Part shown: positions 34,937 through 44,356 of the stretch, piece after piece
How the letters are laid out: every line of letters starts with the position of its first letter
Numbering within the stretch: the stretch's first letter is position 1
NCBI GenBank assembly: GCA_903875425.1
Contig: CAIQWC010000040.1
Span: forward strand, 124,001 to 188,000
Length of the DNA: 64,000 nucleotides
From: an uncultured Actinomycetes bacterium
GTDB lineage: Bacteria; Actinomycetota; Acidimicrobiia; Acidimicrobiales; RAAP-2
Direction of reading: 5' to 3'
Program-made: the position numbers and the translations under genes
Notes under the pieces: generated by a model
The model's database searches: none
What the model was told of the DNA's origin: nothing
Seen by the model: only the letters and a program-made list of their open reading frames with translations

Positions 34937-35602
34937 ATGGACGCCGCTATCGCCCTCACCTCCGCTGTCGCCCTCGTGGGCCGTTTCCCCGTCCTGGCCG
35001 GGGTTGATCTTGCGATGCCCAAAGGAAGTGTCACGACGGTACTCGGGGCCAATGGGGCGGGAAAGACCAGCCTGCTGAGACTGCTCGCTGGCCTTCAACG
35101 CCTCGATAGTGGTTCGGCACGCGTGCTAGGCGTTGACCTCGCGCGACCCGAGCGCAGTTATCGCCGCCGCGTGGGCCTCTTGGCTCACGATCCTGGCCTG
35201 TATGAAGACCTTACTCCGCAAGAAAATCTGGACTTCGCCCTTCATGCAGTCCGGCTGCCGGTGACGGCGACGCTACCGTCACTCATGCGTTGTGGGATTA
35301 GTGGTCGACTTTTGAACACGCCAGTAAAGCATTTGTCTCAGGGTCAGCGACGGCGCGTGGGTTTGGCCAAATTGCTAGCTCGTCGACCCGAGCTGTGGCT
35401 CCTCGACGAACCACACGCGAGTCTTGACGCAACCACGCGAATACTCGTCGGTGAGCTTGTAGAGGAAGCTGCAAGCGGTGGTGCCATGGTGGTTACGACA
35501 AGTCATGAGCCTGAGTACTCGGTGCCCATGGCAGATCTCGTCGTCACTATGGGTGGCGGTGTCGTGATTGCGAGCGAACGAGGTGGCCGACATGCTTCGT
35601 GA
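34937..35602 (+). CDS. ccmA: Cytochrome c maturation ABC transporter ATPase CcmA
   Basis: ATPase that, with CcmB, drives release of heme-loaded CcmE from CcmC in System I cytochrome c biogenesis. 221 residues with Walker A LGANGAGKTSLL, signature LSQGQRRRVGLAKLL, Walker B LWLLDEPHASLD and the H-loop in TTSHEPEYS. The CcmA assignment rests on the downstream ccmBCDEFGH order. The first gene of a tight operon, 53 nt after gmd on the same strand, so gmd could be co-transcribed. It overlaps ccmB by 11 nt. Confidence 0.92.
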   Translation: MDAAIALTSAVALVGRFPVLAGVDLAMPKGSVTTVLGANGAGKTSLLRLLAGLQRLDSGSARVLGVDLARPERSYRRRVGLLAHDPGLYEDLTPQENLDFALHAVRLPVTATLPSLMRCGISGRLLNTPVKHLSQGQRRRVGLAKLLARRPELWLLDEPHASLDATTRILVGELVEEAASGGAMVVTTSHEPEYSVPMADLVVTMGGGVVIASERGGRHAS

Positions 35603-36254
35603 CGCACGTTTGATTGCTGCGAGAGATCTACGAATTGAAATGCGCTCCAAGGTAGCCACCTGGCAAGTCCTACCCTTTGCCTTTTTGTCTCTGATTTTGT
35701 TCGCCTTTGCTATTGGTCCTGACCCGACACTGCTTAAGCAAACATCTCCGGGATTGTTTTGGTTGAGTTTGCTTTTTGCTTCGGTACTTGGGACACAGCG
35801 TTCGCTTTCGATTGAGGGTGATGGAGCAACTCGAGAGGCAACACGACTCTTAGGGATAGATCCGGCAGGGATCTTCCTTGGTAAGACCATTGCGCTTCTC
35901 ATCGAACTTGCAGCGCTTGAAATTGTCTTACTTGGTGGCGTCTTAGTGTTTTTCCATACGCAGGTGTCGAATTGGCCCCTACTCATTTCGTCGCTCATCC
36001 TCGCCCCCATTGGGCTCGCCTCAGCCAGTGTTATCTACGGATCGGTGACGACGGGCCTTCGAAGCACTGCGACCTTGCTACCGTTACTGGTGCTCCCCGT
36101 ACTGGCGCCTCTCCTTATCGCCGGGGCGCGTTGCTTCTCTGTGGCCACGGGTTCTCGAGGAAATTCAGCTGAGTGGCTAGGTATTTTGGCAGTTTTTGCA
36201 GGGATCTACGTCTTACTCGGTATCGTTCTCTATGGACCTTTGGAGGAATCGTGA
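35592..36254 (+). CDS. ccmB: Heme exporter membrane protein CcmB
   Basis: A 220-residue membrane component of the CcmAB complex with six hydrophobic segments. The N-terminus RDARLIAARDLRIEMRSK and the PTLLKQTSPGLFWLSLLFA segment are family marks, and LPLLVLPVLAPLLIAGAR closes the core. The ATG at 35592 lies inside the end of ccmA; a frame extension of 8 codons upstream is less likely. The stop overlaps the GTG of ccmC (GTGA). Confidence 0.92.
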   Translation: MLRDARLIAARDLRIEMRSKVATWQVLPFAFLSLILFAFAIGPDPTLLKQTSPGLFWLSLLFASVLGTQRSLSIEGDGATREATRLLGIDPAGIFLGKTIALLIELAALEIVLLGGVLVFFHTQVSNWPLLISSLILAPIGLASASVIYGSVTTGLRSTATLLPLLVLPVLAPLLIAGARCFSVATGSRGNSAEWLGILAVFAGIYVLLGIVLYGPLEES

Positions 36255-36976
36255 CACGCCGGCAGCTAACGAAGTGGGTAGGAGTAGTTTCGCTGGCCGC
36301 CGCTATCGCCGATGTTTGGCTTGGTCTTTGGGTGACGCCACCTGACGTAAACCAAGGCGATTTAGTTCGCTTGGTTTACATTCACCCGGCGCTCGCCTGG
36401 GTTGCGCTCTACCTCGCTTTTGGCGTAGCGGCTATCTGTTCCATCCTCTACCTGTGGCCACGAACGCGCTCGTTCACCATGGATCGCATCGCTGCGGCTT
36501 CGGTGGAAGTCGGTGTTGTCTTTACTGTGCTCACGCTCATTACGGGTTCGATTTGGGGACGCCCAACGTGGGGAGTCTGGTGGACCTGGGACGCCCGACT
36601 AACTTCAACCGCGTTGCTGGCGGTGATGTTCATTGGGTATCTCGCGCTTCGACGCGTGCCATCGGATCCGCACGTACGCGCGCGCCGCTGTGCCATTGCC
36701 GCAATCATCGCCGCGATTGACGTTCCCATCGTTCACTTCTCGGTTGTCTGGTGGCAGACCCTTCACCAGGGTGCCACGGTGTTGAACCCTAATCTCACCC
36801 CTACGATTCACGGCATCATGGCGTGGACCTTGCTCCTTAGTTTTTTGGCCTTCACGGGGATTTTCGTGTGGATGTTGCTTGTTCGTTTCGATATGGCGGT
36901 GCTTGAAGACGCTGGTGTTGATGACGGTCTTGAATCGGCGCTTATCGATCGTCGCGCAGAAGGGTCATCATCATGA
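36251..36976 (+). CDS. ccmC: Heme handling protein CcmC
   Basis: Transfers heme to CcmE at the outer face of the membrane. The WWD/tryptophan-rich motif occurs as WGRPTWGVWWTWDARLTS (about residues 100-117), with flanking heme-ligand histidines in VYIHPALAWVALY and VHFSVVWWQTLHQG. Six transmembrane segments. The GTG start at 36251 follows TGGAGGAATC, an excellent ribosome binding site, and overlaps the ccmB stop; the frame extends upstream inside ccmB but is not coding there. Length 241. Confidence 0.94.
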   Translation: MTRRQLTKWVGVVSLAAAIADVWLGLWVTPPDVNQGDLVRLVYIHPALAWVALYLAFGVAAICSILYLWPRTRSFTMDRIAAASVEVGVVFTVLTLITGSIWGRPTWGVWWTWDARLTSTALLAVMFIGYLALRRVPSDPHVRARRCAIAAIIAAIDVPIVHFSVVWWQTLHQGATVLNPNLTPTIHGIMAWTLLLSFLAFTGIFVWMLLVRFDMAVLEDAGVDDGLESALIDRRAEGSSS

Positions 36977-37083
36977 GTTACGTCTATGCGGGCTACATCA
37001 TTAGTGTTGCTGGACTTGGTCTCTATGGAGCTTCACTCCTAATCCGCCAGAGACGCTTACGCTCAAAGCGAGGGGTCAAGTGA
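36973..37083 (+). CDS. ccmD: Small membrane protein CcmD
   Basis: A 36-codon gene fitted exactly between ccmC and ccmE: its ATG overlaps the ccmC stop (ATGA) and its TGA overlaps the GTG of ccmE (GTGA). The product has one transmembrane segment (GYIISVAGLGLYGASLLI) followed by a strongly basic tail RQRRLRSKRG, the standard CcmD topology. CcmD helps release holo-CcmE from CcmABC. Assignment rests on position and topology, because CcmD sequences diverge quickly. Confidence 0.85.
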   Translation: MSYVYAGYIISVAGLGLYGASLLIRQRRLRSKRGVK

Positions 37084-37580
37084 GCCAGCAGCGTAATGAC
37101 GTTCCCACGCCCGACACCACGCCCGCCATTCCACAGGTTGCGCGGGGTTCTAAGGTTCGACCCCGCTTACGACTGGCAATGGTGGGTATTGTCATTCTGG
37201 GAGCCGTCGGATTCTTACTGGTTAAAGGTTTGGGTAGTTCTCTCGACTACTTCAAGACGGTTGATCAAGCTAAGGCGTCTGAGACGCAGCTTGGTACCAC
37301 CGTGTTTCGCCTTGAAGGCATTGTGAAACCAGGCAGCATCTCGCAGAGCACGCTGGGAGCCACCTTTACCTTGACGCAAGGTTCTGGTTCGATCCACGTT
37401 GTCAATCGGGGCTCTCCGCCTCAACTTTTTAAGGCGACAATGCCGGTCATCGCTGTGGGGCATTTTGCGGCTGACGGATCAGGCATTTTTCTATCGAATC
37501 AAATCATGATTAAACATTCAGCGTCATATATTGCGCAACATCCCAAACGGGTCACCGCGGGGGATGGGTCGAAACACTAA
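37080..37580 (+). CDS. ccmE: Heme chaperone CcmE
   Basis: Periplasm-facing heme chaperone that carries heme covalently from CcmC to CcmF/H. One N-terminal anchor (LAMVGIVILGAVGFLLVKGL, about 33-52), then the OB-fold beta barrel (FRLEGIVKPGSI, HVVNRGSPPQLFK). The heme-binding motif reads IKHSASY near residue 145, i.e. the H-x-x-x-Y form in which His is the covalent attachment site. Start GTG overlaps the ccmD stop. 166 residues is normal. Confidence 0.93.
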   Translation: MSQQRNDVPTPDTTPAIPQVARGSKVRPRLRLAMVGIVILGAVGFLLVKGLGSSLDYFKTVDQAKASETQLGTTVFRLEGIVKPGSISQSTLGATFTLTQGSGSIHVVNRGSPPQLFKATMPVIAVGHFAADGSGIFLSNQIMIKHSASYIAQHPKRVTAGDGSKH

Positions 37581-39608
37581 ATGAAGGCACACCTCGGAGA
37601 ATTCGGAATTTGGATCTGCCTCCTCTTCTCTAGCGCGGCCATGGTGTTGCTCATCATTGAGCAAGTCCGCCGAACGCGATCGAGATCCGTTGCTCGTCTC
37701 TTAGACGGCCGATGGCTTATTCCCCTAGCGGCGGTTGGAGCAGCGCTCGCCGTTGTGGCCATGCAATGGGCATTGATTACCCACGACTTCACCATCGCTT
37801 ACGTAGCCGCAAACAATGCGTCAGTGACGCCTTTGATCTACTCAATTACGGGCATGTGGTCAGCATTGGCAGGGTCTATTTTGCTCTGGGGGACCATCTT
37901 GATGGTGCTGATCCTCACCGTCATCTGGCGCTATCGCCGCGATCGTGATGATGCCGTGGTCGGCTGGGCTAGCGCAATCTTGTTGGGTATTGCAGTCTTT
38001 TTCTTTGCGCTCATGGCTGGTCCCGCTAACCCTTTCACGGCTACGCAGGGGGCAATTCCTTCGCAAGGTGCAGGACCCAATGCACTACTTCAGAACAATC
38101 CGCTGGTAGCCATTCACCCACCCTTGCTGTACCTCGGCATGGTTGGCTTTAGCGTTCCCTTCGCCTTTGCGATTGCGATGTTGATTACCGGCCGAGTTGA
38201 CGAGCGTTGGTACGTCGAGACGCGACGGTGGGCCTTGTTGAGTTGGACATCGCTCAGTGTAGGCATTGTGCTTGGGGCATGGTGGAGCTATCAGGTACTT
38301 GGCTGGGGTGGGTTCTGGGGTTGGGATCCGGTTGAGAATGCCGCGTTGATGCCGTGGCTACTTGCAACGGCGTATGTCCACTCCATCGTGGTTGAAGAAC
38401 GTCGAGGACTGTTACGAGTTTGGAACTTGAGCCTCGCGATTGCGATTTTTGCGACTACCGTTTTGGGAACTTTTTTCACACGCTCGGGCGTCGTCCAGTC
38501 AGTACATGCGTTTAGCTCATCGACTGTTGGACCCGTCTTACTTGCCTTCTTCGCCTTCATTGTGTTGGGTAGCTTGGGCTTAATTGCGTGGAGGGCTGAC
38601 GCACTTCGGTCACAAGTGGGACTCGATGCAGCGTTCTCGCGAGAAGGTGCTTTCGTTCTTAACAACATGCTGCTCGTGGCATTTTGCTTAGTGGTTCTTG
38701 CGGGAACGGTATTTCCTCTGCTCTATGAAGCCATCAAAGGTGGAGTCGTCACGGTAGGTCCGCCTTACTTCAACTCCATTGGTGCGCCAATTGGTATCGC
38801 CCTACTGGTCTTAATGGCGATCGCCCCTTTGCTGAGTTGGCGTGTTGCTGCAGGGTCGGTAGTGATTCGACGGCTTGAAATTCCTGCCTGGATAGCGACG
38901 ATGCTCACCGTCGTGCTCGTGGCGTTCGGTGTGCGAGGGATCATGCCCTTGTGCGCATACTTTCTAGGAACTTTGGCAGCATCGACGGCAGTTCGATCCC
39001 TCGTTCTTGAATGCATTGCTCGACGTCGGCGCGGAGAGACTGGTCTGAGGAGTTTCTTGGGTCGAAGTGGCGGCGGGATGATCGTGCACCTTGGTGTCGT
39101 GATCGTGGCCATTGGTCTCGTGACCTCGACGTCGTACCTTGCCCGATCAGAGCTGGTACTCTCCCGAGGCGAGACAGTGGTCTTTCAAGGCCACAGCCTG
39201 AAGTACCTCGGTATGTCTACGACGACAAGTAGTTACAAGACAACAACCTCGGTGGATCTCCTCATTGACGGCGGCGGTATCTTCAAGCCGGGCGTGTCAG
39301 AGTTTTCAGGCCGAAATGCTGACCCGGTGGGAACCCCAGCCATCGACTCGAGTTGGAAGGGAGACCTCTACCTCACCTTTGATGCCGTCGGCGCTCATGG
39401 AGGAAGCTCGGGAGCATCGGTCGCCAATAATCTCAAGCCGGGTTCGGTAGCGATTGGCGTTATCGTCGAACCACTCTTGCCATGGCTGTGGATCGGCGGA
39501 CTGGTAATTGGTATCGGGGGGCTCTTGGCGCTGATGCCGACCAAGCGTGGTCGCCGAAGGATGGAACCGGGTGAGTCAGCATTGACCAGGCAAGAAGTGT
39601 CGATATGA
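37581..39608 (+). CDS. ccmF: Cytochrome c heme lyase subunit CcmF
   Basis: Large polytopic heme lyase that attaches heme to the CXXCH motif of apocytochrome c with CcmH. 675 residues with some 13-15 hydrophobic segments. The WWD motif region is WGGFWGWDPVENAALMPW near residue 245, with histidine-containing loops NPLVAIHPPLLYLG and TAYVHSIVVEE, and TRSGVVQSVHAFSSS. Its ATG directly follows the ccmE stop and its own stop overlaps ccmG. Confidence 0.95.
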   Translation: MKAHLGEFGIWICLLFSSAAMVLLIIEQVRRTRSRSVARLLDGRWLIPLAAVGAALAVVAMQWALITHDFTIAYVAANNASVTPLIYSITGMWSALAGSILLWGTILMVLILTVIWRYRRDRDDAVVGWASAILLGIAVFFFALMAGPANPFTATQGAIPSQGAGPNALLQNNPLVAIHPPLLYLGMVGFSVPFAFAIAMLITGRVDERWYVETRRWALLSWTSLSVGIVLGAWWSYQVLGWGGFWGWDPVENAALMPWLLATAYVHSIVVEERRGLLRVWNLSLAIAIFATTVLGTFFTRSGVVQSVHAFSSSTVGPVLLAFFAFIVLGSLGLIAWRADALRSQVGLDAAFSREGAFVLNNMLLVAFCLVVLAGTVFPLLYEAIKGGVVTVGPPYFNSIGAPIGIALLVLMAIAPLLSWRVAAGSVVIRRLEIPAWIATMLTVVLVAFGVRGIMPLCAYFLGTLAASTAVRSLVLECIARRRRGETGLRSFLGRSGGGMIVHLGVVIVAIGLVTSTSYLARSELVLSRGETVVFQGHSLKYLGMSTTTSSYKTTTSVDLLIDGGGIFKPGVSEFSGRNADPVGTPAIDSSWKGDLYLTFDAVGAHGGSSGASVANNLKPGSVAIGVIVEPLLPWLWIGGLVIGIGGLLALMPTKRGRRRMEPGESALTRQEVSI

Positions 39609-40180
39609 GTCGCCCTCGCCGACTCCGCCGCATAACCATTGGCATAACCGCGACCATTGCCTTCGTGAGTATCGCGCTGATCGCACTCCTCGCCTCACGG
39701 GGGCCGGCCTCAGCGATTCCATTTCAGAGCCCCATGATTGGCCAAGAAGCGCCAAAACTAAGGGCCACAAACCTTTCTGGTGGAGCGCTGTCAACGAAGG
39801 ACGAGGTACCACTCACGCCGATCGGCGGCCGACCGCTCGTTGTTAACTTCTTTGCTTCATGGTGTGCCCCATGCAAGGCTGAAGCTCCTGAACTAAACGC
39901 GTTCTCCTATGACCAATCTCTCAAAACAAATGGAGCGCGACTCGTTGGGGTGGTGTTTAACGACGCCGATAGCGCCGCGCGCGCGTTCGCACGGAGTGAA
40001 GGAATCCTGTACGAATTCGCTGCTGATAGTGGCGGAACAATTGCGTCAGCCTATGGGGTGACGTCGCCGCCAACAACCTTCTTAATCAATACTTCAGGCA
40101 AAGTCGTTGAGGCCTGGATCGGACCTATCACTGCTTCACAGCTCGATAAAGCGGTAGTTTCCAAAGGATATAGCTCATGA
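39605..40180 (+). CDS. ccmG: Thiol-disulfide reductase CcmG/DsbE (TlpA/ResA-like)
   Basis: Membrane-anchored thioredoxin-fold reductant for the apocytochrome CXXCH or CcmH. An N-terminal transmembrane anchor (ITATIAFVSIALIALLAS) precedes a thioredoxin domain with VNFFASWCAPCKAEAPEL (active-site CAPC near residue 85) and cis-Pro region TSPPTTFLINTSG. 191 residues. Start overlaps the ccmF stop by 4 nt and its stop overlaps ccmH by 4 nt. Confidence 0.92.
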   Translation: MSRPRRLRRITIGITATIAFVSIALIALLASRGPASAIPFQSPMIGQEAPKLRATNLSGGALSTKDEVPLTPIGGRPLVVNFFASWCAPCKAEAPELNAFSYDQSLKTNGARLVGVVFNDADSAARAFARSEGILYEFAADSGGTIASAYGVTSPPTTFLINTSGKVVEAWIGPITASQLDKAVVSKGYSS

Positions 40181-40599
40181 CCAAGGTCCCAGTCTGGGTT
40201 CGGTGGACGACCCTGGTGGTGTGCTTAGCAGTGTCGCTCATTGTTGGATCGCGCGTCTTTGATTCGATACCTCCCACGCTGTCTCAGCGTGCTGCCTCGC
40301 TGGAGGCAACCCTGAAGTGTCCGAGTTGTCAAGATCTCTCTGTTGCGCAATCAACCTCGGCGTCATCGTTGGCAGTGCGAGGCTACGTGCTTCGTCACCT
40401 CAACCAGGGTTGGAGTGATAGTCAGATCGTGAGCGGACTTGAGGCACGCTATGGAAATGCAATCTTGCTCGTACCTCCCGCTGGAGGTTTGAGCACACTG
40501 CTTTGGATTCTGCCCATTGTGCTGATTGTGCTTATCGTTGGTAGTGTCGGCGCCTTCATCATCCGCCAACGACGCCGTGCTTCAGGTGTGTCATCGTGA
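40177..40599 (+). CDS. ccmH: Cytochrome c maturation protein CcmH
   Basis: Delivers reduced apocytochrome to CcmF. 140 residues: an N-terminal hydrophobic segment, the domain with the redox motif LKCPSCQDLSVAQS (C-x-x-C near residues 47-50), the helix WSDSQIVSGLEARYGN and LLVPPAGGLSTLLW, then a C-terminal transmembrane helix LPIVLIVLIVGSVGAFII. This matches the small three-helix CcmH of System I. The NrfF/CycL relatives are excluded by the complete ccm context. Confidence 0.93.
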   Translation: MTKVPVWVRWTTLVVCLAVSLIVGSRVFDSIPPTLSQRAASLEATLKCPSCQDLSVAQSTSASSLAVRGYVLRHLNQGWSDSQIVSGLEARYGNAILLVPPAGGLSTLLWILPIVLIVLIVGSVGAFIIRQRRRASGVSS

Positions 40600-41327
40600 G
40601 TGACTACCCCCATCACCTTGAGGATGAGATCTCACTTCTTGAGCGCTCACTCTTGGACGCACAGCAAGAGTTCGACCGCGGTGAACTCGATGCCCAACGC
40701 TATATAAAACTCCGTGATCGCGATCAGGCGATGATTGAGCGCTTACGAGCTCAGATTGCTGAATCCTCGGTATCGCCTCGCGAGGAATCTGATGCTGTCG
40801 GGCAAGACGGACGAGTGGGGCGGTCCCTATCGAAGAAACTTGCCATCGTATTACTCCTGCTCGTGGTTGCGATTAGTGGTGTGGTGTTGTGGTTCGTCCT
40901 AGGAACCAATACGTCTCCCAACGCTCAGCGTGATGCAATCGTGACCATGCTGAACCAGGCCGACAACCAAGTCCAGCACGGTAAGCCAGCAGAAGCACTT
41001 GTTCTCTACAACGCAGTGCTCAAACTAGATCCGACCCAGAGTCAGGCATTGGCCCAATCGGGATGGCTGACCTTTGAAGCGGGGATGGTGGCAAATTCAA
41101 AACCCCTCGTCGCTCATGGCGATGCTTTGGTAAGCGAGGCAACGATTGTGGACCCCAAGCTCTACGCGGCCCACCTCTATCGCGGCGTAATCGATCTCGT
41201 GGCCAAGCATGACGCCAAGGGGGCTCTCGTTCAGTTTGCGGCCTTTCGTGCGTTGCATCCGCCAGCTAAGTGGCAGAGCTTGGCGCAGAAGTATATTGCC
41301 CAAGCCGAACAAGAACTTCGTAGCTAG
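40596..41327 (+). CDS. CcmI-like TPR membrane protein
   Basis: 243 residues, last in the ccm operon, with a 4-nt overlap. It has a charged N-terminal helix (DEISLLERSLLDAQQEFDRG), a transmembrane segment (KKLAIVLLLLVVAISGVVLW, about 88-107) and a tetratricopeptide-like periplasmic part (VQHGKPAEALVLYNAVLKLD, PKLYAAHLYRG). This is the arrangement of CcmI, which holds apocytochrome c for the CcmFH lyase. Sequence similarity to proteobacterial CcmI cannot be judged by eye; the role is inferred from position and domains. The stop shares CTAG (41324-41327) with the convergent gene. Confidence 0.75.
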   Translation: MSDYPHHLEDEISLLERSLLDAQQEFDRGELDAQRYIKLRDRDQAMIERLRAQIAESSVSPREESDAVGQDGRVGRSLSKKLAIVLLLLVVAISGVVLWFVLGTNTSPNAQRDAIVTMLNQADNQVQHGKPAEALVLYNAVLKLDPTQSQALAQSGWLTFEAGMVANSKPLVAHGDALVSEATIVDPKLYAAHLYRGVIDLVAKHDAKGALVQFAAFRALHPPAKWQSLAQKYIAQAEQELRS

Positions 41328-42475
41328 TTTGCTGTCTTGCGCAGGGCTGTGAGTTCTCTTGTCACCTCTGGGAGCGCGGCTGCCAAGCGGGTGAGGTCTT
41401 CGTCGGAACTTGACCAACCAACGCTGATACGAAGAGACCGTAGACCATCGAAACCTAAGGCTTGATGCGTCGACGAAGGCAGCGGATCCTCGCCACTGCA
41501 GGCGGATCCTGCATGGACCGCGATGCCCCTTCGGTTGAGAGACATAGCGACTGCGCTTGCTTCAAATCCTGGAGATACATAACTGACTAAGTAGTCGAGC
41601 GTTGAACCGTTCACAGGGGTAACGCGATGGAGGAGGCCGCTTGCCTCGACCGTAGCGTCTATGTGTTCGATGAAACGTCGCTGCCGCCTGGCTTCTGCGC
41701 GCAAGCTAGCTGTGTCAAGCAGCGGTTGGCAGGCAAGACCAAACCCGACGATGCCCATCAGATTTTCAAGACCGGCTCGGCGACCTCGCTCTTGGGCACC
41801 GCCAACAAGCTGTGAAACGATTCTTGGTTCGCCTAGGTCAATGAGGGCAACCGTACCGAGAGGTCCACCAAGTAATTCAGCGGCAACGATGCGGAAGTGC
41901 GCTCCCTCGGGGCGGGGAAGGTCTCGCCCAAAGGTCAAGGTTTCGTCGCAGATGAGGGTACAGCCATGGGCGTGCGCGATTACTGAGATGGTCTGGAGGT
42001 CATTGACGACTCCAATTTCGTGATTGGCGTGCTGGGCCACGATTACGGAACCCGGATAAGCCGCAGCACTATCGGCGAGGGCGTCGAGATCAATACGACC
42101 GTGGTCGTCGAGGCTCAGTGTTTGGAGTGGCGCACATCGTGCGGCATGTTCAAGGAGCGATAGGCGTTCCGCGGCCGATATCAAGATGATGCCACCAGCC
42201 TTCACGCTCGAAGCGAAGGCTGTGAGCGCCGCTTCGGCGATAGAGCCCATAAAGGTTACGCGACGCGTTTCGACGCCACCAAGTAGCGCAACGGAGCTTC
42301 GGGCATCCTCTATGAGGTCGCGGAGCTGAAGTGCATCATCGAATTGGCGCGCCGGGTCGGCTTGGGGTATGGCGAGCAGTTCGCTAAGGCCCTCGACAAC
42401 GCCAGGGCGAAGTGGCGAGGTGGTGGCGTGGTCGAAGTAGGTGGCCACGTTAGGCGCTGGTGCGGCACGAGGCAT
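41324..42475 (-). CDS. Cysteine desulfurase-like aminotransferase lacking the PLP lysine
   Basis: A class V aminotransferase-fold protein of the NifS/IscS branch (383 residues). Family marks: TYFDHATTSPLRPGV, VAQHANHEIGVV, the PLP-contact Asp in LICDETLTFGR, GGAQERGRRAGLENLMGIVG, and a mobile-loop cysteine in HAGSACSGEDPLPSS that corresponds to the persulfide Cys. The segment that should read S-x-H-K-x-x-G-P-x-G is AAELLGGPLG: the Schiff-base Lys and the stacking His are both replaced. Re-translating the reverse strand at 41850-41890 confirms this. It is therefore probably not a normal desulfurase. Start ATG at 42475 overlaps the sufR-like gene; an in-frame upstream start exists. Confidence 0.82.
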   Translation of the reverse strand: MPRAAPAPNVATYFDHATTSPLRPGVVEGLSELLAIPQADPARQFDDALQLRDLIEDARSSVALLGGVETRRVTFMGSIAEAALTAFASSVKAGGIILISAAERLSLLEHAARCAPLQTLSLDDHGRIDLDALADSAAAYPGSVIVAQHANHEIGVVNDLQTISVIAHAHGCTLICDETLTFGRDLPRPEGAHFRIVAAELLGGPLGTVALIDLGEPRIVSQLVGGAQERGRRAGLENLMGIVGFGLACQPLLDTASLRAEARRQRRFIEHIDATVEASGLLHRVTPVNGSTLDYLVSYVSPGFEASAVAMSLNRRGIAVHAGSACSGEDPLPSSTHQALGFDGLRSLRISVGWSSSDEDLTRLAAALPEVTRELTALRKTAN

Positions 42476-43169
42476 CGCCTCGAGCTCGTGAGGTGAGTTC
42501 CACGTGCGTGGTCCCGATCTCGGCTCCCATACCAACTAGGAGGCCTTGGACCATCCCGCGATCAACGGCGCAGAGCACAGGGTGGTGAGCGGCTGCTTGA
42601 CCGAAGGGGCAGCTCGTTGAGATAACGGACGTTGATGCATCGCCGACTTCGGCATGCGCAGCAAAACCGTGAGCGGTTAAGACCTCGGCGATGGCGACCA
42701 TGGCGGTACGCACTGACCTGCCCGATTCTTGGCTACCCATTGACGTCGCAAGCTCTTCTCCATAGGCGATACCAACTTCCGTGGCCATGGCTTCAGCTTG
42801 ATTAGGGCCCAACATCTCGAGAGAGCGCTCGAGGAGTCGCACTAACAGTACGTCACGCTGTGAGCCAAAATTAATGGTTGCGGTATCGCCCTTGCATCGA
42901 TAGCGCTTCGCGGGGCGGCCCGCGCCGGCGGTTTTCTCTGGGGCTTCGGCGACAATGTGGCCAGCTGACACGAGGCGATCGAGGTGGTGGCGGACCACAT
43001 TGGGGTGCAAGGAGAATTCTTCCGCTAACGCAGCCACGGTCTGAAGCGGGGTAGCCCTCAGGCTCAGGTAGATAGCCCGGCGTGTAGGGTCACCAAACGA
43101 ACTCGAAAGCGCCGCCATCGTGGCGGTGAAATCTGCATCGCGGGATGATACGTCTGCGGTGTTCGCCAC
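42450..43169 (-). CDS. SufR-like iron-sulfur HTH transcriptional regulator
   Basis: A winged-helix regulator of 239 residues from the chosen GTG. The N-terminal HTH has SFGDPTRRAIYLSLRATPLQ and EEFSLHPNVVRHHLDRLVSAG. The C-terminus carries cysteines at CPFGQAAAHHPVLC (C-x12-C) and DASC, the spacing seen in SufR proteins that hold an Fe-S cluster and control suf genes. GRPAKRYR is the wing. It lies head-to-tail with the desulfurase-like gene and diverges from mrp, which strengthens an Fe-S-sensing role. The frame extends to a TTG at 43211; GTG 43169 is preferred because a TACACT box lies 7 nt upstream. Confidence 0.82.
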   Translation of the reverse strand: MANTADVSSRDADFTATMAALSSSFGDPTRRAIYLSLRATPLQTVAALAEEFSLHPNVVRHHLDRLVSAGHIVAEAPEKTAGAGRPAKRYRCKGDTATINFGSQRDVLLVRLLERSLEMLGPNQAEAMATEVGIAYGEELATSMGSQESGRSVRTAMVAIAEVLTAHGFAAHAEVGDASTSVISTSCPFGQAAAHHPVLCAVDRGMVQGLLVGMGAEIGTTHVELTSRARGDASCRTSA

Positions 43170-43176
43170 GGTCGAT

Positions 43177-43182
43177 AGTGTA
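43177..43182 (-). promoter_or_regulatory. Candidate -10 box for a leaderless sufR-like transcript
   Basis: On the minus strand TACACT is followed after 7 nt by GTG (43169), the spacing expected when transcription begins at the start codon itself. No ribosome binding site precedes that GTG, consistent with leaderless translation, common in actinobacteria. A TTGACC (43206-43211) lies too far upstream for an ideal -35. Confidence 0.4.
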
Positions 43183-43222
43183 CCAGTGGCCCTCTTTTCC
43201 GAGTCGGTCAAAGGAGGATACG

Positions 43223-44356
43223 GTGAGCGTCAGCGAGCAGGTGCGCAGCGCCGTGGAGGCAGTGCTTGACCCCGAGTTGGAACTTTCCCTCGGAAGCGTC
43301 GGCATGGTCGGCACGGTTGAGGAGCGCAAGGGCGTCCTCGAGGTCGAACTTAAGGTGCCGATCGTGGCGTGGCCCTCGGTGCCGGCCCTGATGTCGGCTA
43401 TTGAAGCTGCTGCCCAGGCAGCCGGCGCCGGAGCAGTGGCGGTATCTCGCGTGACCATGACGGAGGCTGAACGAATGACGTTGCGGGCAGCGCTTCGTAG
43501 CTCAATGGTGATCGCGCAGGACCATCCGGGCCATCACCAGAGCCCTTCAGACCAACCCCGATTCTTGGCTAAAGAATCCAAGACTCGCGTGCTCGGGATT
43601 TCTTCGGGCAAGGGCGGGGTAGGAAAGTCTTCGGTAACGGTGAATCTGGCCATCGCTTTGGCTCGCCAGGGCGTGCGTGTCGGCATTCTCGATGCTGATG
43701 TCTATGGCTTCTCGGTGCCCAAGATGCTTGGCACCTCCCATGATCCCATCATCCTCGGTGACACGGTGATCCCCACAGCCATGCACGGTGTTCGATGCCT
43801 GTCGATGGGTTTCTTTGTGCCCGATGACAAGCCAGTGATTTGGCGTGGACCCATGTTGCACAAGACCATAGAACAGTTTGTGACCGAAGCTCAGTGGGGC
43901 GAACCCGATTACCTCTTGATTGACATGCCGCCAGGAACTGGAGATGTGGCCCTAACGCTCTCCGAGGTATTGCCCAAGGTCGAGATTTATGTCGTAACAA
44001 CACCCCAACCGGCAGCGCAGCGCGTTGCGCAGCGCTCGGCGTGGGCGGCCCGGAAGATGAAGCTTGCGGTGCGCGGCGTCATTGAAAATATGAGCTGGTT
44101 TACCGGGGACGACAATAAGCGTTATGAACTCTTTGGCGCAGGTGGGGGAGACAACTTAGCGAGTGACCTTGGTGTCCCCATGCTGGGCCAGATTCCCTTC
44201 GCCGCTGCCCTGCGCGAAGGCGGCGATGACGGTAACCCGATTACCGTGGTCGCTCCCGAGTCAGAAGCTGCGCAAGCTTTCTTCTCGTTGGCAGAAAAAA
44301 TCGCTGCCCAAGGTCCGGCCCGTGTTTACCGCCAAGAACTCTCGCTTCTCCCGTGA
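43223..44356 (+). CDS. mrp: Mrp/ApbC-type iron-sulfur cluster carrier ATPase
   Basis: P-loop ATPase thought to carry and insert Fe-S clusters. An N-terminal MIP18/DUF59 domain (VRSAVEAVLDPELELSLGS) is joined to a ParA/MinD-like domain with deviant Walker A SSGKGGVGKSSVTVN near residue 117. Then GILDADVYGFSVPKMLG, LIDMPPGTGDVALTLSE and GVIENMSWFTGD follow. The paired C-terminal CXXC of many Mrp proteins is not seen here; the segment after NMSWF has no cysteines. GTG start at 43223 follows AAAGGAGGATACG. 377 residues. Divergent from the SufR-like regulator. Confidence 0.9.
   Translation: MSVSEQVRSAVEAVLDPELELSLGSVGMVGTVEERKGVLEVELKVPIVAWPSVPALMSAIEAAAQAAGAGAVAVSRVTMTEAERMTLRAALRSSMVIAQDHPGHHQSPSDQPRFLAKESKTRVLGISSGKGGVGKSSVTVNLAIALARQGVRVGILDADVYGFSVPKMLGTSHDPIILGDTVIPTAMHGVRCLSMGFFVPDDKPVIWRGPMLHKTIEQFVTEAQWGEPDYLLIDMPPGTGDVALTLSEVLPKVEIYVVTTPQPAAQRVAQRSAWAARKMKLAVRGVIENMSWFTGDDNKRYELFGAGGGDNLASDLGVPMLGQIPFAAALREGGDDGNPITVVAPESEAAQAFFSLAEKIAAQGPARVYRQELSLLP

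Follow-up and report, generated by a model that had tools for sequence, protein, structure and literature searches.

Among IscS proteins that lack the PLP-binding lysine, that of Archaeoglobus fulgidus carries aspartate in its place and hence has no desulfurase activity; one ligand of the IscU-bound [2Fe-2S] cluster is a cysteine that it supplies (both as given in a passage of PMC7585200 that cites the original papers), and it has been solved in complex with IscU. IscS1 of Methanosarcina acetivorans likewise has no catalytic lysine, and its genome also encodes an active IscS2 (PMC7585200). We found no account of lysine-less desulfurases from Acidimicrobiia in the open-licence PMC literature. 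A preliminary description of the DNA analysed here knew of no function for such a form; A. fulgidus IscS, as that passage of PMC7585200 presents it, is a described precedent.

The protein reported here, referred to as CD, is encoded in the window, a stretch of 64,000 nucleotides from an uncultured bacterium of the Acidimicrobiales. Like A. fulgidus IscS (PDB 4eb5, 4eb7, 4hvk; D199K mutant 4r5f), it combines the IscS fold and a retained loop cysteine with a replaced lysine. The archaeal protein, however, keeps the PLP-stacking histidine (VEHMSV) and a GATE phosphate loop, both of which were lost in the clade to which CD belongs. With M. acetivorans IscS1, whose genome has the active IscS2, it shares the status of an IscS homologue without the catalytic lysine, whereas IscS1 is archaeal, clustered with iscU1, insoluble on expression and without a clade-wide study. 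The locus has the following features:

34937..41327, plus strand: cytochrome c maturation genes (ccm cluster), running convergently to the CD gene; a neighbour conserved across the order
41324..42475, minus strand: CD, a lysine-less IscS/NifS-fold protein of 383 residues from the likely ATG at 42475; the frame is open to 42535
42450..43169, minus strand: SufR-like ArsR-type HTH regulator with a GTG start and three invariant cysteines (CPFG-x8-LC ... C)
43176..43184, plus strand: near-palindrome TAGTSTACC(G) in the sufR–mrp divergent promoter region
43223..44356, plus strand: mrp/ApbC-like P-loop NTPase, divergent from sufR, with a GTG start at 43223

The minus-strand open reading frame 41324–42535 is uninterrupted in the window. 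Its product matches Aminotran_5 (Pfam PF00266, E = 1.4e-27), which assigns it to aminotransferase class V of fold type I, and its nearest NCBIfam models are those of NifS/IscS, reached at 114.5 bits against an equivalog cut-off of 530.75. An AlphaFold model based on a 27-sequence alignment had a mean pLDDT of 86.7, with values below 50 in the cysteine loop (residues 325–330), as expected for a mobile loop. The top Foldseek matches of this model were the IscS proteins of Mycobacterium tuberculosis and A. fulgidus (TM 0.85 to IscS), and by E-value A. fulgidus IscS was also the closest sequence in the PDB (7.1e-29 with the single sequence, 5.7e-77 with a profile). We are confident in the IscS fold predicted by the model. 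Pfam, NCBIfam and the alignment (HAGSACSGED, Cys326) agree with the preliminary description that the IscS/NifS scaffold and the persulfide-loop cysteine, the catalytic cysteine of the mobile loop, are kept.

The S-x-H-K region of the protein reads AAELLGGPLG. The lysine and the adjacent histidine had both been described as gone, and the alignment places Leu201 and Glu200 at their positions. It also extends the loss in the cofactor site from two positions to four, adding Arg104 for the PLP-stacking histidine and Ala80 for the phosphate-loop threonine. The codons concerned, assigned from the alignment, and that of the retained cysteine are:

41873..41878, minus strand: Glu200-Leu201, where the S-x-H-K PLP motif has His-Lys (K206 in E. 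coli IscS)
42164..42166, minus strand: Arg104, replacing the PLP-stacking, catalytic histidine (E. coli IscS H104)
42236..42238, minus strand: Ala80, replacing the invariant threonine of the PLP-phosphate loop (SG[GA]TE to GSIAE)
41498..41500, minus strand: Cys326, the persulfide cysteine in the mobile loop (C328 in E. coli IscS), present in 122/122 orthologues

Compared with a canonical IscS/NifS cysteine desulfurase, CD thus keeps the fold, the cysteine loop and the equivalents of Asp180, Asn155 and Arg354, but has lost those of Lys206, His104 and the phosphate threonine. In E. coli IscS, H104 is required for activity (PMC9978102).

We aligned orthologues belonging to this family and order, 15 without the lysine against 40 with it. 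The lysine-less proteins come from 15 species in five genera (g1, g7, g11, g18 and g19) and form a single clade, with support of 100/99 in a tree calculated after removal of the motif columns. Arginine at the H104 position is found in 15/15 clade members and 0/40 lysine-bearing orthologues, and Glu200, which turns SxHK into SxE-x, in 14/15 and 0/40, respectively; the phosphate-loop threonine is absent from 13/15 members. The Schiff-base lysine is present in none of the 15, and its position is occupied variably by Leu, Gly, Met or Thr. Conservation across homologues, which the preliminary description had raised for the leucine and the cysteine, therefore holds for Cys326, as well as for Glu200 and Arg104, but not for the leucine. 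Of 106 columns that are at least 95% conserved in the lysine-bearing proteins, 34 remain in all 15 clade members, including Cys326, Asp177, Asn151, His321 and the GG-QER-RR segment. The pocket residues N151, D177, Q228, E229 and R230 are invariant.

The CD frame is open in all 15 species. A change confined to this one copy, which the preliminary description had put forward as the mark of decay, is at odds with a state found in 15 species of one clade under purifying selection, and we rejected single-copy decay and assembly error because the state is common to all 15. We also rejected a shifted active-site lysine: no column carries lysine in more than 5 of the 15 members, one of which has no lysine in the domain at all, so that no aligned lysine elsewhere replaces the lost one, as had been considered. 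The near absence of lysines described for CD is real (two in the aligned domain) but not peculiar to it, the median for other family members being 1.5, and lysine poverty was dismissed as a special sign because it is a family-wide trait. At the position of Gln183 of E. coli IscS (window residue 180), a residue that hydrogen-bonds the PLP phenolate, orthologues of the f1 family outside the main clade carry alanine (30), methionine (2) or serine (1). The PLP site may thus have weakened before the lysine was lost.

Order-wide sampling yielded 122 distinct orthologues, 24 of which have another residue in place of the lysine (Leu 6, Gly 6, Thr 5, Arg 4, Met 2, Ser 1); this proportion is not an estimate of frequency, as loci were chosen from the best matches together with selected low-scoring or small genomes. 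The tree of the 122 requires five independent losses: in the main clade, in g20 (HT; L102, L103), in two g8 species (HT and HS; L031, L065), in four species of g73 in f53 (HR; L178, L179, L192, L203) and in one f45 species (HT; L163 of G536). In the four losses outside the main clade the lysine became Thr, Ser or Arg, and H104 and the cysteine loop were retained. Across all 122 orthologues Cys326 and Asp177, the pyridine aspartate, show zero changes, and H104 shows one. At least five separate losses of the lysine, with the cysteine kept each time, suggest that the cell needs the cysteine rather than the chemistry.

The locus itself is shared across the order. On sampled contigs of sufficient length, CD is flanked by the convergent ccm cluster and by sufR, from which mrp diverges; dGTPase-like and ArsA-like genes often follow beyond mrp in the sampled loci. 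The CD gene had been placed opposite mrp, but its convergent neighbour is a ccmI-like gene and it is sufR from which mrp diverges. The same locus holds lysine-bearing and lysine-less CD genes, other genera keeping HK, which indicates that the window gene is a vertically inherited orthologue and not a transferred or duplicate copy. The loss of the lysine was probably independent of that in A. fulgidus, given that the clade is nested among lysine-bearing Acidimicrobiia at one syntenic locus in trees that were built without the archaeal protein. A tree computed from the neighbouring proteins (Mrp, CcmF, dGTPase and SufR) recovers the lysine-less clade and places g10, a large genus, inside it as the sister of g18. 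No CD gene was found between sufR and the ccm cluster in the g10 genomes (L131–L137), where mrp and a sufR with all three cysteines are still in position. The nested position of g10 implies an order of events in which the lysine and the pocket were lost and the gene was then lost in one lineage. In the orthologues compared across the order, the Mrp/ApbC homologue (43223–44356) is without the C-x-x-C Fe-S motif (GVIENMSWFTGDDNKRYELFG), which makes the name 'iron-sulfur carrier' doubtful where it rests on annotation alone.

The sufR and CD genes overlap by 26 bp, counted from the CD ATG. This bears out the overlap with a SufR-like gene of C-x12-C type in the preliminary description and adds a third cysteine, all three being invariant in the sampled orthologues wherever the region is present. 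The regulator has a winged HTH (HTH_20, 3.4e-10) and conserved cysteines that are putative Fe-S ligands. It resembles SufR (TIGR02702) in its ArsR-type HTH and spaced cysteines, but differs in its score (28.1 bits, far under the equivalog cut-off of 178.8), in its three invariant cysteines and in its distance from the suf operon. No other SufR-like regulator was found in the genome, and this one adjoins the CD gene and not the suf operon (contig C38). The proposed coupling of CD to this regulator, if taken as obligate, is unsupported: the nested g10 has no CD and keeps sufR and mrp, and we regard an obligate SufR partner as weakened by this.

Upstream of sufR, TAGTSTACC occurs in 31/36 loci outside g10, with near-matches in four of the other five, and there are only 32 such sites in 458 kb of compared loci; a longer form has one match in the whole window genome. 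In g10, which lacks CD, the first T is altered. The element holds TAnnnT on each strand and is 7 nt from the sufR GTG at 43169, on its upstream side. It could represent a -10 element that serves both directions, sufR then being leaderless, or an operator for SufR.

Selection on the CD gene was evaluated from dN/dS, as the preliminary description had suggested. NG86 gave 0.09–0.23 in lysine-less pairs and 0.17–0.22 in lysine-bearing pairs, and purifying selection on the former thus equals that on the latter; YN00 gave no usable values in many pairs. NG86 reaches saturation within the window's genus, for which we turned to 4-fold sites and a simple simulation of neutral change. In this genus 64% of 4-fold sites differ, yet the frame stays open and residue identity is 61%, while the neutral simulation at the same divergence gave 12% identity and about 15 stops. 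Relative to its neighbours, CD evolves at a rate of 1.7–4.7 in the clade versus 1.0–2.8 for lysine-bearing f1 genes, about twice as fast, and fastest in the window's genus. This suggests that constraint is partly relaxed, most of all in that genus.

A search of the same genome for canonical desulfurases, also proposed earlier, was positive. The genome encodes SufS, together with SufU in a suf operon, and, adjoining mnmA, a canonical IscS that has HK. A scan of genome contigs gave three loci only. A lack of canonical desulfurases was thereby rejected, and any desulfurase activity of CD would be dispensable given the other two. The genome holds no dedicated IscU, its only NifU_N protein being the SufU of the suf operon.

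From the sequence comparisons, the status of CD as a pseudoenzyme is well supported. The fuller account has, in our view, an even chance of being right: CD is an orthologue, inherited vertically, of a NifS/IscS-type protein found across the order in Acidimicrobiia; it lost PLP binding in the ancestor of the clade and was kept for a job of its mobile-loop cysteine. Since selection retains the fold and the loop cysteine in the genome's third desulfurase-type protein, the likeliest biochemical role would be one that needs no PLP and acts through Cys326, which would ligate Fe-S or carry a persulfide; SufR and Mrp suggest an Fe-S setting. CD would fold into a dimer of the IscS kind that holds no PLP, its vacated pocket refilled by Arg104 and Glu200. 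Cys326 could serve as an Fe-S ligand, by analogy with the cysteine that A. fulgidus IscS offers to the nascent [2Fe-2S] cluster on IscU, or as a persulfide acceptor fed by SufS or the mnmA-linked IscS; expression together with the SufR-like gene, from which mrp diverges, would point to Fe-S supply. What speaks for this account is the joint change of the pocket in 15 species with newly conserved R104 and E200, five lysine losses against invariant Cys326 and Asp177, purifying selection, the predicted fold, the A. fulgidus match and the canonical SufS and IscS. Against it count the missing IscU, the A. fulgidus partner and the main difference from the archaeal precedent, the roughly twofold relative rate and the deletion in one nested genus; moreover, the conservation of Cys326 could come in part from loop structure. 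A non-catalytic sulfur or persulfide protein, one of the options in the preliminary description, hence remains the best-supported class of explanation, shorn of an obligate tie to SufR.

The raised rate, the repeated loss of the lysine and the disappearance of CD from g10 beside an intact sufR and mrp would all be accommodated by slow decay, with a redundant desulfurase activity, an eroded PLP site, a gene heading for deletion and residual constraint from folding alone. Such decay is harder to reconcile with selection as strong as on lysine-bearing orthologues, open frames and an invariant Cys326 in 15 species, the fixation of two residues peculiar to the clade at positions that once served PLP, and persistence through five genera, and we consider it unlikely. 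The invariant mobile-loop cysteine also suggests chemistry over mere docking and, together with the survival of the regulator and promoter region in g10 without CD, makes it rather unlikely that CD is a pseudoenzyme that gates the flow of sulfur, or the regulator, by binding SufS, IscS, SufU or SufR, without sulfur chemistry of its own, even though it shares an operon with the SufR-like gene in the sampled loci and a genome with canonical desulfurases. Finally, the emptied pocket (Arg104, Glu200 and the retained Asn151, Asp177 and Arg349) might bind another small molecule, possibly non-covalent PLP in the single-residue variants of g8, g20 and g73. The invariant N151, D177, Q228, E229 and R230, the H104 kept in those three genera, and the PLP that E. 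coli IscS K206A still binds to some extent without desulfurase activity (PMC9978102) are compatible with this, but the main clade has also lost the phosphate-loop threonine (13/15) and H104 (15/15), and the ligand is putative, so that we hold a new ligand or reaction to be quite improbable.

Taking the cysteine-based account further, we raise, as a tentative proposal that we would not yet favour, that the conserved job of the order-wide NifS-like protein was never mainly PLP chemistry. The cysteine loop would be the working part even in lysine-bearing members, the lysine having been free to go five times and the cysteine not, and these proteins would form a class of bacterial IscS that works independently of PLP, as Fe-S ligands or persulfide carriers. 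Many such genes are labelled 'cysteine desulfurase' by homology and very probably cannot encode one. In the papers found, lysine-less IscS proteins are described from few archaea only; here they make up a bacterial family. With five losses of the lysine, none of the cysteine, and a series at one syntenic locus that runs from the intact site through single-residue loss and a fully rebuilt pocket to deletion of the gene, the family is a natural experiment on the non-desulfurating roles of a desulfurase.
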